Below are positions 3,001 to 38,121 of a stretch of DNA of 64,000 nt, in pieces; position 1 is the stretch's first letter; every line of letters begins with the position of its first letter. Source of the stretch: Bacteroidia bacterium (GTDB taxonomy: Bacteria > Bacteroidota > Bacteroidia > CAILMK01 > JBBDIG01); assembly GCA_040880525.1 (NCBI GenBank), contig JBBDIG010000019.1, forward strand, positions 1 through 64,000, read 5' to 3'. The notes under the pieces were generated by a model. It was given only the letters and a program-made list of their open reading frames with translations, was not told the origin of the DNA and searched no databases. Made by a program: the position numbers and the translations under genes.

Positions 3001-6000
3001 AATTGGCAAAACCCGTCCTGCAACGGAGGGAATGACGGCTATGCTATTGTAACAGTGACTGGTGGGGCTACACCGTATACCTATGACTGGTCAAATAATG
3101 ACACCACTGACAGCATCGGCAGCCTGTCCGCAGGACTTTACGTGGTGACTGTTACAGACAATAATAACTGCGAGGTCAGGGATTCTGTCATCCTCAGCAA
3201 TCCCCCCGCAATAAACCTGAGCGTATCAACCACTCCGGTAAGTTGCAATGGCGGAAATGATGGCTCAGCTTATGTTTCCAACCTGACCGGAGGAATGGCC
3301 CCATACAGCTATTTGTGGAGTTCAAACGAAACCGTGGATTCCATCTTTGGCAAAACTGCTGGCGGGTACTCCTTAACGGTTACTGATTCTAATGGATGCC
3401 AGGAAACAGAAAATTTCAACATTACCCAACCCAGTCCGCTTTCTGTATTTTTCAGTCCGGTGGTAGGAGTAAACTGCAGCGGAGACAGCACAGGTTCTGC
3501 AAGGGCGCTGGTTTCCGGTGGAAATGGCGGCTATTCCTATAGCTGGAGCAACGGAGATCTCACACAAACTGCCGATAGCCTTGCTGCCGGATATCACACA
3601 GTAACTGTAACCGACTCCAAAGGATGCATGGTTGTGGATTCTGTACTGATTAACCAGCAGCCGCCAATCACCATTAACTTCAATTCCAGCAATGCCCAGT
3701 GCAACAATGATAGTACAGGTTCTGCAACTGCATTCGTATCAGGTGGGCAATCGCCATATTCCTACAGTTGGAGCAATGGCGACATGACCCAAACTGCTGA
3801 CAGCCTCCCTGCCGGTACGCACTATGTAACCGTAACTGATGTTAACGGCTGCACCGGCAATGATTCGGTAACTATAACACAGCCCTCTGCACTGACCACT
3901 TCAATTCCACATAACGATGTGAATTGTAATGGAGACAGCACCGGATCTGCCATGGTCAATGTATTTGGCGGGACATCCCCATTCAGTTACAACTGGAGCA
4001 ACGGTGAAACCACCGCGGCCATAGACAGTCTTGCTGCCGGGATATATTATGTGCAGGTAACTGACGACAATGGTTGTATGGGATCCGATTCTGTTATAAT
4101 CAATGAACGTCCGGCTTTGGTGTTGAATCTTGACTCAACGGATGTAACCTGTAATGGAGCTGCCGATGGAACCGCTACGGTATCAGTAAGTGGCGGAACA
4201 CCGGGATATTCTTACGCCTGGAGCAATGGGGACATTACGGCAACAGCCGACTCTTTGCCAGCCGGAATTTACCAGGTGGTGGTTACCGACTTTTTCGGAT
4301 GTATAGATTCAGCATCTATTCAGGTCAACGAGCCTGCAGCACTTACCATATCCATTAATAACACTGATCTATTGTGTCATGGTGACAGCACGGCCACTGC
4401 CACGGCTTCTGTAAATGGTGGCACTCCCCCCTACTCTTATCAGTGGAGCAATGGGGATGCAACGGCAACGGCAGACAGCCTCCCGGCCGGAATGCACTAC
4501 CTCACTGTTACTGATTCAAATGGTTGCCAGGTAATGGATTCAGTGGAGATCACACAGCCTTCACTCCTTTCACTTGGCCAGAACCATACAGATGTTTCCA
4601 CTTCCGGAGGCAATGACGGTTCAATCGACCTGAGCGTATCAGGCGGAACATTTCCTTATACTTATCTGTGGAGCAATAATGCCAACACTCAGGACATAAA
4701 CAACCTTACCGCGGGGCAGTACTGCGTGTTGGTGACCGATGACAATGGGTGTCAGGACAGCCTCTGCGTTATAATCAACGAGCCCGGCTGTGCCGGATTT
4801 TCCGTAACAGTCGATTCCACTGATGTTTCCTGTAATGGTGGTGATGATGGTACGGCCACGGCAGTCGTGACCGGTGGTGCCTCACCATATTCCTATAACT
4901 GGAGTAATGGGGATACGGGCATCATGGCAGATACATTGAGTGCCGGGGCTTATTCGCTCACGGTGGTTGACAACAATAATTGTAGTACCAGCACCAACTT
5001 TGTAATCAACGAACCCAGTGAATTGCTCGTAACGGTGAACGGAACCGATGTGCTATGCAATGGCGATAACACCGGAACGGCCACAGCCAATGTTTCAGGC
5101 GGAACAACTCCTTATTCTTATTCCTGGAGTAATGGTGATACAACTTCAACTGCTGACAGCCTTGACGCAGGAATGCACTACGTTACGATTACTGATTCTA
5201 ATGGGTGCATGACATTGGATTCTGTAGAGATAACAGAACCACCGGCCTTATCCGTTTCAACTTCAGGAACCGATGTATTGTGCAATGGAAACAATAGCGG
5301 CACTGCAACAGCCAACGTTACTGGCGGAACCGGCCCATACAACTATGAGTGGAGCAATGGTGATACGGGTTCAACTGCTGACAGCCTTGCTGCAGGAATT
5401 CATTATGTCACCGTTACGGATGACAATGGTTGTATGATCCTGGATTCAGTTGAGATTTTGGAACCACCTGCCCTCTCTGTTTCAACCTCAGGAACGGATG
5501 TGCTTTGCAATGGTGATAACACCGGATCAGCAACAGCGACACCATCAGGTGGAACCATGCCTTATGCCTATAATTGGAGCAATGGCGACATGACCCCAAC
5601 TGCTGATAGCCTCGCAGCCGGTTGGCATTACGTAACGGTTACAGATTCCAATGGCTGCATGGTGACGGATTCGGTTGAGATCACTGAGCCTGCTGTATTG
5701 GACCTTACCCACAACAGAACAGATGTTTCCACCAATGGCGGCTCTGACGGTTCAATTGATCTCACCGTCTTAGGAGGAACATCACCTTACTCCTATCTGT
5801 GGTCTAATTCTGACACCACCCAGGACATTTCAGGCCTTACCGCTGGACAATATTGTGTGGTAGTTACAGACGACAATGGTTGCATAGACAGCGTTTGCGT
5901 CAACATCACTGAACCAGCACCTGGCTGTCCTTCCCTGGGCCTATCTACCGTTGATACTGACGTGCTTTGCAATGGAGGCAATACAGGATCCTCCACTGTT

Positions 6001-9000
6001 TCTACTTCCGGTGGAACTGCACCGTTTACCTATCAATGGTCAAATGGCGATACCGGTACCACTGCTGATTCTCTCTCTGCAGGCGCTTATTCCGTAATTG
6101 TTACTGACGACAATGGATGTGTAGATACTGCCACCGTGAATATTTCAGAACCGGCTTTACTGACCGTGTCAGTTTCAGGAACGGATGTGCTTTGCAATGG
6201 TGATAACACCGGGTCTGCAACAGCTACTCCTTCAGGAGGCACAACGCCTTATGAATACAGTTGGAACAATGGCGATATGACAGCAACTGCCGATAGCCTC
6301 GCAGCCGGATGGCACTATGTAACCGTTACCGATTCCAACGGCTGCATAGTCACTGATTCGGTGGAAATTACGGAACCAGCGTTACTGACTGTTACGACTT
6401 CTGTGGACAATCATGTTTCCTGCAATGGAGAAAGCAATGGCATGGCCACAGCATCAGCATCTGGCGGCACAATGCCTTATGAATTCAGTTGGAGCAATGG
6501 CGACATGACGGCAACTGCTGATAGCCTTCCAGCCGGATGGCATTACGTTATGGTGACAGATTCGAATGGCTGTATGGTGACGGATTCAGTAGAGATCACT
6601 GAGCCTGCTGTATTGGACCTTACCCACAGCAGTACAAATGTTTCTACAAATGGCGGCTCTGACGGATCAATTGATCTCACTGTCACTGGAGGAACATCAC
6701 CTTACTCCTATCTTTGGTCTAATTCAGCCACCTCGCAGGACATTTCAGGCCTTACTGCTGGGCAATATTGTGTGGTCGTTACAGATGACAATGGTTGCAT
6801 AGACAGCGTTTGCGTCATCATCACTGAACCTGCACCGGGTTGTCCTTCGCTGGGCCTCTCTACTATTGATAATGACGTACTTTGCAATGGAGGAAATACG
6901 GGCTCATCCACTGTTTCTACTTCCGGTGGAGCTGCACCGTTTTCTTATCAGTGGTCAAATGGCGATACAGGAACCATTGCTGATTCCCTCTCCGCTGGTG
7001 CTTATACCGTGATAGTTACTGACAGCAATGGATGTGCAGATACCGCCACCGTGAATATTTCAGAACCGACTTTACTGACCATGTCTGTTTCAGGAACGGA
7101 TGTGCTTTGCAATGGTGATAATACCGGGTCTGCAACAACTACTCCTTCAGGAGGCACAACGCCTTATGCATACAACTGGAGCAATGGCGATATGACGGCA
7201 ACTGCCGATAGTCTCGCAGCCGGATGGCATTACGTTACAGTGACAGACTCCAACGGCTGCATGGTCACGGATTCCGTGGAGATAACCGAACCTGCTATTT
7301 TGAGTGTTTCCATTTCGGGAGTTGGCCATGTGCTTTGCAATGGTGAAAACACCGGAGCAGCAACTGCTAATGCTTCAGGAGGAACAACGCCTTATTCATA
7401 TAGTTGGAGTAATGGCGACAAGACCGCAACTGCCGACAGCCTCGCAGCCGGATGGCATTACGTTACGGTGACAGATTCAAATGGCTGCATGGTCACGGAT
7501 TCGGTAGAGATTACCGAACCTGCGTTACTGACAGTTTCTGTCTCTGTTGACAATCATGTTTCCTGCAATGGCGGCAGCAATGGAATGGCCACAGCATCAG
7601 CTTCCGGGGGAAGTAATCCTTATGAATACATCTGGAGCAATGGCGACATGACTGCCACAGCCGATTCACTGCCTGCAGGATGGCACTATGTCACTATTAT
7701 GGACGACAACGGATGTACCCTGCTGGATTCCGTTGAAATTTCAGAACCCACACCAATTGAGATTACGGGCAATGTAACTGATGAATCCAGTTCAGGCGCT
7801 TCTGACGGGGCTATAAATATTACAGTTACCGGTGGTACTGCTCCTTATGCTTTCGCGTGGAGCAACAGCGACACCACTGAAGATATTTCCGGGCTGTCTT
7901 CAGGAAATTATTGGGTGGTGGTGACCGATGACAATGGCTGCCAGGATTCTGCAGAATTTGATGTATTTGTAGGAGCGGTTGTTCCGGTTGTAAAGGTTAC
8001 TCCTTCTGACAGTATTGGTTCAGGCCGCGCAGGATATTCCACAGCCATCAGAGGCGACTGGGCAATAGCAGGTGCCCCGCTGGATACTACTTATGGGCCT
8101 AAATCAGGGGCTGCTTATATTTATCAGAAAGTTGGCGGGGCATGGACAAGCCATGACAAACTCACATCAACCTCGAACCAGTCTGGTGATAAATTCGGCT
8201 TTGCTGTGGACATTTATGATACGCTCGCCATTATCGGAGCCCCCGAGGAAAACAGCCTCGGCTTTGGTACCGGTGTAGCCTACGTGTTTGCCCGCAGGTC
8301 TGGCTCATGGGTCGAACTCCAAACCCTAACTGCTCCAACCATCAAACGTGGCGACTTCTATGGCTATGATGTGGCAATCTTTGGGGAACGAATCGCAATT
8401 GGAAGTTTTGGGGCTGATCTCTCGGGTTACACACAATCAGGCGCAGTCTATATTTATGAAAGATCTGCAGGCACCTGGGCTCACACAGAAACGCTGTTGC
8501 CAAATGACGTAAACCACAACGACTACACCGGTCTCTCCGTGGATATGTATGAAGACCGCGTGGTGGCAGGATCGCCCACCAAAAACTCAGGATTGCTCTT
8601 AAAGGCCGGTGCTGCTTACGTCTGGAAATATGATGGCGCAGGCAACTGGGCGCAGGAGGGCAAGCTGGTTTCAGGCGACCTGGATACCCGCGATTCATTC
8701 GGTATATCAGTGGCCGTTGTAGATAGCACCGTGATCGTAGGTGCTTATGGTAATGATGATGACGGCAACAACTCTGGTTCGGCTTACATCTTTCAGAAAG
8801 GTGCTAGCACGTATGCGCAAACAGGTAAACTCACCGCGAGCGATGGCGATGCCACCCATCTGTTCGGCCATTCCGTAGGCATTACAAATGACACTGCCAT
8901 TGTAGGGGCCTATGCTGATGACCACAGCGGCATCCGCTCAGGTTCTGCCTATCTCTTCGCCAACAGTGGCGGCTGGGGCCAGTTCAAAAAGCTGGTGGCA

Positions 9001-29344: not shown

Positions 29345-29786
29345 TTACAACTCAATCTGTTCGGCCTTCTGACTAATCAAATTTTTATACTCCTCCTTCA
29401 TTTTATTCGGCAGAAAACTGACATCAATAAAATTCATCCAGTCAGCGATACTTCCGGCCATGCGGGAGAAAATGTTCTCTATAGCATTGGCGTCAAGGGA
29501 GAACCGGTTCATTGCTACTTCAAAATCCCTGTCGCTTCAGTTTTTTCTTCTTTCCATTTAATGTGAGGGCAAGTTCTTCGTCATCACCTTTTACGATTAA
29601 TGCCGAAGAAACCAAATCATAAGCAGGACATAGCGTATATCCAATTTCGGTATGTTTTAAAAGCGAAAAATTCTTGAGATGCATATAAGCGTAAAGGAAG
29701 AAAGTCTCCTCAACCAGGAGGGGCTTACAGTTAGCCTCTATAGTATCCAGAAATATCCGGTCGTTATTGACTACGGAGCTATCCAT
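29345..29786 (-). pseudogene. HipA-like serine/threonine kinase remnant (truncated and frameshifted)
   Basis: The reading frame from about 29786 carries YMHLKNFSLL, CPAYDLVSSA and DDEELALTLNGKKKK, all typical of the C-lobe of HipA kinases. It ends at TGA near 29520. A one-base shift continues the family sequence (SDRDFEVAMNRFSLD ... WMNFIDVSFLP ... QKAEQIEL) to the stop at 29345. The 5' half is missing: the sequence stops at the edge of the tRNA-derived array. In the usual N-x-D-x-H-x-K-N motif the catalytic Asp is replaced (AYMHLKN). No HipB partner is present. It is therefore dead as a toxin. Confidence 0.75.
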
Positions 29787-29845
29787 TTCCCCGGTCTTTC
29801 CGGTGTAATACCGGAATGCTCTGAACCAACTGAGCTAAACTCATG

Positions 29846-29922
29846 TGGGAGTTGAGGGATTCGAACCCCCGACCCTTCCGGTGTAATACCGGAATGCGCT
29901 GAACCAACTGAGCTAAACTCGT
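29846..29922 (-). pseudogene. tRNA-Val-like pseudogene (hairpin anticodon arm)
   Basis: This 77-nt unit keeps the D-arm region, T arm and 3' acceptor strand of tRNA-Val. The anticodon arm is two nt longer than normal and forms a 7-bp stem. Taken as a 6-bp stem with a 7-nt loop, the central triplet is TTA and position 33 is A rather than the near-invariant U. The D stem has a T-C mismatch (GCTC / GCGC), and the first two acceptor pairs are lost. Decoding function is unlikely. Confidence 0.65.
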
Positions 29923-29923
29923 G

Positions 29924-30000
29924 TGGGAGTTGAGGGATTCGAACCCCCGACCCTTCCGGTGTAATACCGGAATGCGCTGAACCAACTGAGCTAAACTCGT
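29924..30000 (-). pseudogene. tRNA-Val-like pseudogene (hairpin anticodon arm), second copy
   Basis: This unit has practically the same sequence as the one at 29846-29922 and the same defects: the long palindromic anticodon arm, a mismatch in the D stem and two lost acceptor pairs. It lies directly downstream of the intact tRNA-Val, one base away, so both are probably in one primary transcript. Confidence 0.65.
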
Positions 30001-30001
30001 G

Positions 30002-30076
30002 TGGGAGTTGAGGGATTCGAACCCCCGACCCTCTGCTTGTAAGGCAGATGCTCTGAACCAACTGAGCTAAACTCCC
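30002..30076 (-). tRNA. tRNA-Val(TAC)
   Basis: The 75-nt cloverleaf is orthodox: acceptor GGGAGTT / AACTCCC, D stem GCTC / GAGC, anticodon stem TCTGC / GCAGA around loop CTTACAA (anticodon TAC, reading GTA codons), T arm GGGGG-TTCGAAT-CCCTC, discriminator A. The CCA end is not encoded. It is the only apparently functional member of the array. Confidence 0.93.
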
Positions 30077-30285
30077 ATTTTACTTCATCATTTCCAAGCC
30101 GACCCTTCCGGTGTAATACCGGAATGCGCTGAACCAACTGAGCTAAACTCCCATTTTACTTCATCATTTCCAAGCCGACCCTTCCGGTGTAATACCGGAA
30201 TGCTCTGAACCAACTGAGCTAAACTCCCAATTTTAAACTAAACTCCCATTTGGAAATTCGCCTTGCTCTATCGCGAAAGCGGGTG

Positions 30286-37083: not shown

Positions 37084-38031
37084 ATGAAGTTTCAAAATCC
37101 TCAACCCCTGCGGGAAGTTGCAGAAGTTTTAAACTGCCGTTATAAAGGTCCTCACGATCTTTCACTTACCGGAATCAATGAAATCCACAAAGTGGAAGCC
37201 GGGGATATTACGTTTACCGATGTTCCCAAATATTATAAAAAGGCGCTGAATTCAGCAGCTACAGCAGTGCTCATTAATAGCGAAGAACAGGAACCTGCGG
37301 CAGGGAAAGGACTCCTCATCTCCGAAGATCCTTTCAGAGACTATAACCGGCTGGTGAAGCACTTCAGGCTGCCGGCTCCCATTCCGCAGGGGAAGTTTAC
37401 GGTAGGGAAGAGCGTGACGATCGCAGAAAATACGCAGGTTCATCCGGGCGTGGTGATCGGCAATTTTGTGAAGATTGGCCGCAACTGCATAATATATCCT
37501 AACGTGGTGATCTATGATCAAACCACCATTGGCGATAATGTGGTTATTCATGCCAACAGTGTTTTAGGAGCCGATGCCTTTTATTTTAAAAACAGAAATA
37601 CGCACCACGATAAATTGATTTCCTGCGGAAACGTGATCGTTGAGGAGGATGTGGAAATTGGCGCTTCATGCACGATTGACAAGGGGGTGAGCGGCAGCAC
37701 CGTGATTGGCAAAGGCAGCAAACTGGACAATCACATCCATGTGGGACATGGCGCCATCATTGGTAAACGCTGCCTGATTGCGGCTCAATGTGGAATAGGC
37801 GGCAAAGCCATCATTGAGGATGACGTCATCATCTGGGGCCAGGCAGGAATAACGAAGGACATCAGGATCGGTAAAGGTGCCGTGATCTCTGCGCAGGCCG
37901 GAGTTTCCAAGTCATTGCCGGGAGGCAAGCTCTATTTCGGATCTCCCGCCCGTGATGCCCGTACAGCCTACCGGGAAATGGCTGCATTAAGAATGATGTC
38001 TGCCAATCCGGAAAATAAACCTGATACCTGA
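37084..38031 (+). CDS. lpxD: UDP-3-O-acylglucosamine N-acyltransferase-like protein (LpxD)
   Basis: The product is 315 residues from ATG at 37084; a longer frame begins at 36979 but its residues do not belong to the family. LpxD adds the N-linked hydroxyacyl chain in lipid A synthesis. An N-terminal uridine-binding-type domain (about 1-100) is followed by left-handed beta-helix hexapeptides (about 105-285, e.g. VTIAENTQVHPGVVIGNFVKIGRNC, IGKGSKLDNHIHVGHGAIIGKRC). His in the LDNHIHVGHG segment is the expected catalytic base. It is shorter than typical LpxD (about 340), and Bacteroidota often carry two LpxD-like genes, so this may be the second copy. Confidence 0.85.
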   Translation: MKFQNPQPLREVAEVLNCRYKGPHDLSLTGINEIHKVEAGDITFTDVPKYYKKALNSAATAVLINSEEQEPAAGKGLLISEDPFRDYNRLVKHFRLPAPIPQGKFTVGKSVTIAENTQVHPGVVIGNFVKIGRNCIIYPNVVIYDQTTIGDNVVIHANSVLGADAFYFKNRNTHHDKLISCGNVIVEEDVEIGASCTIDKGVSGSTVIGKGSKLDNHIHVGHGAIIGKRCLIAAQCGIGGKAIIEDDVIIWGQAGITKDIRIGKGAVISAQAGVSKSLPGGKLYFGSPARDARTAYREMAALRMMSANPENKPDT

Positions 38032-38049
38032 AATCAAAAGTTCCGGGCG

Positions 38050-38097
38050 CTGAAAAAAAAAGCCTCTTCCAACCATTGCTGGCTGAAAGAGGCTTCC
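38050..38097 (-). terminator. Rho-independent terminator of the lipoprotein gene
   Basis: On the minus strand, GAAGCCTCTTT...AAGAGGCTTTTTTTTT forms an 8-bp stem with a run of nine T. It follows the stop of the gene at 38122. On the plus strand it lies just after lpxD but lacks a T run there. Confidence 0.8.
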
Positions 38098-38121
38098 CCC
38101 GTCCTTTGTATTACAAATAAT

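Follow-up and report, generated by a model that had tools for sequence, protein, structure and literature searches.

A tandem array derived from tRNA-Val(TAC) lies within the 64,000-nucleotide stretch of a Bacteroidia genome analysed here (the window), and with moderate confidence we read it as derived from, or a relic of, a tRNA-associated GIY-YIG element that is common in this bacterial class, with the nuclease missing. We call the array a derivative or relic since it keeps the partial tRNA copies and their palindromes while the nuclease is absent. This reading is built on the layout of the loci, their recurrence in related genomes, the palindromic character of the marks, a nuclease phylogeny that tracks tRNA isotype, an empty site in a congener and the absence of the nuclease from the window. 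Cutting of the tRNA gene, duplication driven by its repair and an immunity conferred by the palindromes would be the steps connecting these observations.

The palindrome-marked array in the window

The array occupies the minus strand in the order stub, A1, A2, intact tRNA-Val(TAC), F1, F2, F3 (Table 1), with one intact gene and five partial copies spaced by 76-78 bp. As an earlier note on this DNA had described, all five partial copies contain one and the same palindrome, TTCCGGTATTACACCGGAA, as the content of their anticodon arm, two of them (F1 and F2) retain the T arm, and a stub of a further 5'-end, GGGAGTTTAG, is found beyond the first unit. The 19-mer occurs exactly five times, against 0.03 occurrences expected even with three mismatches, and has no exact match outside the array in the 3.8-Mb genome. 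F1 begins immediately 3' of the intact tRNA, with no intervening gene. In A1 and A2 the T arm has been exchanged for another tail, as the earlier note had claimed; this tail, however, measures 22 nt rather than 24 nt and is identical to the intact tRNA's own leader (CTTGGAAATGATGAAGTAAAAT), and it therefore marks a duplication of leader and 5' half, not a foreign piece.

Table 1. Features of the array and of the adjoining hipA piece, with coordinates in the window.
Feature	Position	Strand	Basis
Stub of another 5' end, GGGAGTTTAG	30247-30238	-	Sequence
A1, 5'-type partial copy made up of acceptor 5' strand, D arm, palindrome and GGGTCGG	30228-30175	-	Sequence, repeat family D1
A1 palindrome TTCCGGTATTACACCGGAA	30200-30182	-	Sequence
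22-nt tail CTTGGAAATGATGAAGTAAAAT after A1, same as the leader of the intact tRNA	30174-30153	-	Sequence, repeat family D2
A2, second 5'-type partial copy	30152-30099	-	Sequence, repeat family D1
A2 palindrome	30124-30106	-	Sequence
22-nt tail, second copy, which is the leader of the intact tRNA	30098-30077	-	Sequence
Intact tRNA-Val(TAC), sole complete unit	30076-30001	-	ARAGORN; Rfam tRNA 75.8 bits
F1: T arm kept, palindrome in anticodon arm, acceptor top and D stem broken	30000-29923	-	Rfam tRNA 33.4 bits
F1 palindrome	29972-29954	-	Sequence
F2: built as F1	29922-29845	-	Rfam tRNA 33.4 bits
F2 palindrome	29894-29876	-	Sequence
F3: tRNA 5' part and palindrome, cut right after the palindrome	~29844-29798	-	Sequence
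F3 palindrome	29816-29798	-	Sequence
hipA C-terminal pseudogene piece adjoining the array	29523-29693	-	Amino-acid identity of up to 68-70% with intact HipA of other genomes

The hipA piece had been described as fused to the last unit, which did not hold: HipA homology is clear only over the segment listed in Table 1, and the ~100 nt between the last palindrome and that segment (29694-29797) are open in the HipA frame and without a HipA match. As a source of the hairpin hipA was rejected, because its intact relatives fail to align over the piece adjoining the hairpin. Elsewhere in the window, tandem repeats of ~225-228 bp extend over 5041-7664.

The partial copies depart from a working tRNA at several positions. 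F1 and F2 have lost the first two acceptor pairs, a D-stem mismatch (GCTC/GCGC) occurs in A2, F1 and F2, and the arm of F1 and F2 has 6-7 bp with an A at position 33, compared to the 5-bp stem and U33 of an anticodon arm, in agreement with the lack of U33 reported earlier. In a covariance search with Rfam, a check that the earlier note had advised, the intact gene scored 75.8 bits, compared to 33.4 bits for each of F1 and F2. Judged by their sequence, the partial copies are not functional as tRNAs, a conclusion that for F1 and F2 follows from the broken acceptor top and D pair, the lack of U33 and the low tRNA score. ARAGORN labelled both as tRNA-Stop(tta), and a suppressor tRNA with the anticodon UUA was ruled out by the missing U33 and the broken acceptor and D stems.

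A non-decoding RNA product had also been suggested. One such structured RNA would be a Y-RNA-like molecule in which T arm, acceptor hairpin and D arm are closed by paired palindromes. The palindrome would be able to pair locally or between units, and positions 29894-29795 match the YrlA family (RF02553; 34.4 bits, E 3e-5), with which they share a T arm, an acceptor hairpin and a D arm in circularly permuted order. This score, however, lies at half the family cut-off of 69 bits, and similar matches occurred in 7/14 control genomes, E. coli and B. subtilis included, as well as in the ordinary Thr/Gly/Tyr genes of the relative G010, because tandem tRNAs in general place a T arm, acceptor strands and a D arm side by side in a way that resembles a permuted tRNA. 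Searching the window genome for the partner protein (TROVE/Rsr/Ro60, PF05731) gave 0 matches. The cut-off, the control genomes and the absent TROVE gene rule out a YrlA or Y RNA identity, and, with the acceptor and D stems of the units broken as well, we regard a functional RNA of any such kind as very improbable.

Marked copies and a companion nuclease in related genomes

To place the array among its relatives we compared 395 genomes of the same class as the window genome. A tRNA-Val search of this sample led first to G311 and G135, where the partial copies have another palindrome as their anticodon arm, and a pattern search then gave palindrome-marked tRNA-Val copies in 9/395 genomes from 6 families. 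A second pattern, which did not require a palindrome, returned solely palindromes (TCCCGATACAATCGGGA, TCCCGCCTAAAGGCGGGA, TTCCGACTAACAGTCGGAA and others) and one ordinary tRNA-Val(GAC); two further genomes with marked copies were G046 and G139. The search of tRNA loci in relatives that the earlier note had proposed thus found palindromic arms recurring, nearly always with another sequence, and among tRNA-Val marks the palindrome differs at nearly every locus. The exact 19-mer of the window matched other genomes and viral contigs only outside tRNAs. The position of the palindrome and its flanks, in turn, are the same in the window array and in the marked copies of other genomes.

Within a locus the marks agree: 5'-type (A) and 3'-type (B) copies carry identical or near-identical palindromes in G311, G142, G379 and G046, with a paired T-A to C-G change between A and B in G379 and one internal mismatch in the G311 palindrome. 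That the arm was fixed as a unit before duplication, one of the earlier proposals, fits the window, but in the wider sample the arms are nearly all different. We compiled 40 palindromes with pair counts, a hand-picked list that we do not take to prove covariation, since its members were chosen for perfection. At locus L070 of G135 (6046 and 6413), each marked copy has two palindromes, the first in the anticodon arm and the second in place of the T loop.

Nearly all marked tRNA-Val loci include a small ORF, which follows the intact tRNA and its terminator and precedes the palindrome-marked 3' copy. Its product is a protein of ~85 aa with a GIY-YIG domain (PF01541), and this companion nuclease was detected in 164/395 genomes at E<=1e-12. 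Of about 90 nuclease loci inspected, 83 had enough sequence to be scored. In 69/83 a tRNA lies no more than 200 nt upstream of the nuclease, with 12 tRNA isotypes involved at nuclease loci, and in 45/83 a 3' tRNA copy, called by a strict 22-nt match, follows downstream. In 39 of these 45 copies a stem pairs perfectly over at least 6 bp, compared to 6.7 expected from dinucleotide-preserving shuffles. The palindrome usually takes the place of the anticodon arm (Val, Arg, Lys and Ala copies), stands directly 3' of CATA in tRNA-Met copies and is found in the T loop or variable region of others; replacement of the anticodon arm is thus true of the window and of most Val loci, not of the whole family. 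Nuclease units can themselves be tandem, as in G282, where three occur at 369 bp. At a further locus (L172; G117 C9:905000-911000), ten near-identical GIY-YIG units with 457-bp spacing lie downstream of a tRNA-Met.

Compared with this element, the window array has the marked partial copy beside an intact tRNA and no nuclease between them. Nothing in the window matched the nuclease better than E 0.2, with no match near the array, and the family has 0 members in the window genome at 1e-12, so the array's membership is argued from its anatomy. G089 resembles the window in having a marked copy while not being among the listed nuclease carriers. The window's own genome does contain, at L100 (G000 C10, ~37897-38121), a GIY-YIG gene situated between GTCATTCTGA..TCAGAATGAC inverted-repeat copies, with no tRNA.

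The architecture is also present, with other palindromes, in many genomes including the single-contig genome G142, which makes it extremely improbable that the array is an assembly artefact of a repeat-rich or strain-mixed sample. Its copy number might still be mis-assembled, as the longest exact repeat among the copies is 111 nt and the genome is in 60 contigs.

A more serious question is whether the palindromes require a nuclease at all. Under neutral decay, tRNA genes would duplicate in tandem through ordinary recombination and the dead copies would collect REP-like palindromes, which spread across these genomes and lodge in stem-loops, the nuclease being a neighbour or one of several users of the site. 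CCCGAT..ATCGGG palindromes are indeed dispersed in some genomes (58 in G270, 35 in G089 and 33 in G135, compared to 0-2 for the reversed control), and in G270 two stems of the RNase P RNA gene (L132, C29, 1812-2207) are built from palindromes of this CCCGATAG..CTATCGGG type; the window array, moreover, has palindromes without a nuclease. Yet the window palindrome occurs nowhere else in its genome as an exact match, marked copies go closely with the nuclease gene (the 39/45 above), and several kinds of palindrome, TCCGYC at tRNA-Met and TCAYGC at tRNA-Pro among them, differ from the CCCGAT type. We therefore consider neutral decay unlikely, if far from negligible.

Nuclease phylogeny and an empty site

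In a tree of 72 nucleases, built on few columns, with many unresolved forks and a query set drawn from Val loci, tRNA isotype required 21 changes, compared to a mean of 44 and a minimum of 37 under shuffling, while host family required 55, compared to a shuffled mean of 60 and minimum of 56. The nuclease phylogeny thus follows tRNA isotype and not host family. One supported group unites 18 Met-associated nucleases from 12 host families, and single hosts carry distinct nuclease lineages at distinct tRNAs.

Comparison of close relatives revealed an empty site. G135 and its congener G104 have the flanks and both tRNA-Val genes in common, and G104 is without the two tandem 367-bp units of nuclease and marked copy found in G135. 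Between G025 and G220, the upstream flank goes with the intact tRNA and the downstream match continues from the marked copy. Movement between cells gains no backing from our searches of phage and plasmid collections, both of which were without nuclease relatives.

The earlier note had taken the array as a possible site for integrating mobile DNA. This gains support in kind, with marked copies accompanying a GIY-YIG nuclease at tRNAs and a congener carrying the empty site, although the array has little likeness to the usual integrase attachment (att) site. tRNA genes are common att sites, and the core GGTTCAGAGCAT-palindrome-GGGTCGG forms direct repeats flanking the intact tRNA, as might be left by successive insertions and excisions of a tyrosine-recombinase element using the anticodon arm. 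The eight neighbouring proteins, however, include no integrase domain, the companion at other loci is a GIY-YIG nuclease, and the palindromes vary between hosts, all of which renders such an origin very improbable.

A candidate mechanism and its known counterparts

If the array derives from the GIY-YIG element, we propose the following course of events. The nuclease would cut the tRNA gene for which its lineage is specific, and recombination with a sister or donor copy would mend the break and preserve one complete tRNA. What is left of the broken gene, the 5' portion in A units or the 3' portion in B and F units, would persist alongside as tandem repeats, and the palindrome in these leftover copies would remove the cutting site, possibly giving immunity, and so end the cutting of the locus. 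The window would have kept the duplicated pieces of tRNA with their palindromes after losing the nuclease gene. One argument against disabling as the reason for a palindrome is that plain mutation would disable a copy too. The marks may instead be supplied by a separate palindrome-spreading process, given that CCCGAT..ATCGGG palindromes are dispersed also in G270, which is not a listed nuclease carrier.

The closest described system is SegB, a free-standing GIY-YIG homing endonuclease of T-even phages that cuts tRNA genes and that, in phage T6, drives the tandem amplification of tRNA-Tyr together with segB (PMC13096335). In the bacterial loci, too, the nuclease gene neighbours tRNA genes, tRNA and nuclease are amplified in tandem, and at the junction the 3' end of the nuclease gene resembles the tRNA 5' part in sequence. 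They differ from SegB in that they are chromosomal, their nuclease lineages follow isotype, the nuclease lies 3' of the tRNA terminator and the partial tRNA copy is marked by a palindrome; in addition, cutting is here a proposed activity. Association with a tRNA, as at a SegB-type locus, is seen at the sister loci (the 69/83 above), and the window array has no intact nuclease gene. The nuclease matched phage homing endonuclease families weakly. Its best match of solved structure is a UPF0213-type GIY-YIG protein (BH0048, PDB 1zg2; E 2e-7), which is similar as a small stand-alone domain but does not count as a match in function.

Another parallel is offered by REP palindromes with their RAYT enzymes (PMC3733652, PMC2817692), where short palindromes dispersed through a genome are linked to a small enzyme that processes DNA. 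In contrast, the enzyme here belongs to another family, and the palindrome is fixed inside a tRNA copy, differs at nearly each locus and, in the window, is not dispersed. Searching the open literature for an element combining tRNA, GIY-YIG nuclease and palindrome returned nothing beyond SegB, and searching for the palindrome letters returned no relevant paper. The widespread arrangement of tRNA, GIY-YIG nuclease and palindrome-marked copy is thus apparently undescribed.

Tentatively, we extend this to a broader possibility: that a large share of this bacterial class harbours, beside its tRNA genes, a large and so far undescribed family of homing nucleases specific for tRNA isotypes, each insertion of which gives the host an intact tRNA and leaves a marked copy as an immunity or recombination mark. 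Such loci might grow and shrink by nuclease-driven tandem duplication, and the window might represent the state after loss of the nuclease.

An odd tRNA array has in this way become a lead on a common, seemingly unreported association of nuclease, tRNA and marked copy. If cutting is confirmed, selfish nucleases would be maintaining and duplicating tRNA genes in cellular chromosomes, many pseudo-tRNAs and odd 'tRNA-Stop' calls would be explained, and a set of small nucleases would be at hand, their lineages distinguished by the tRNA that they target.
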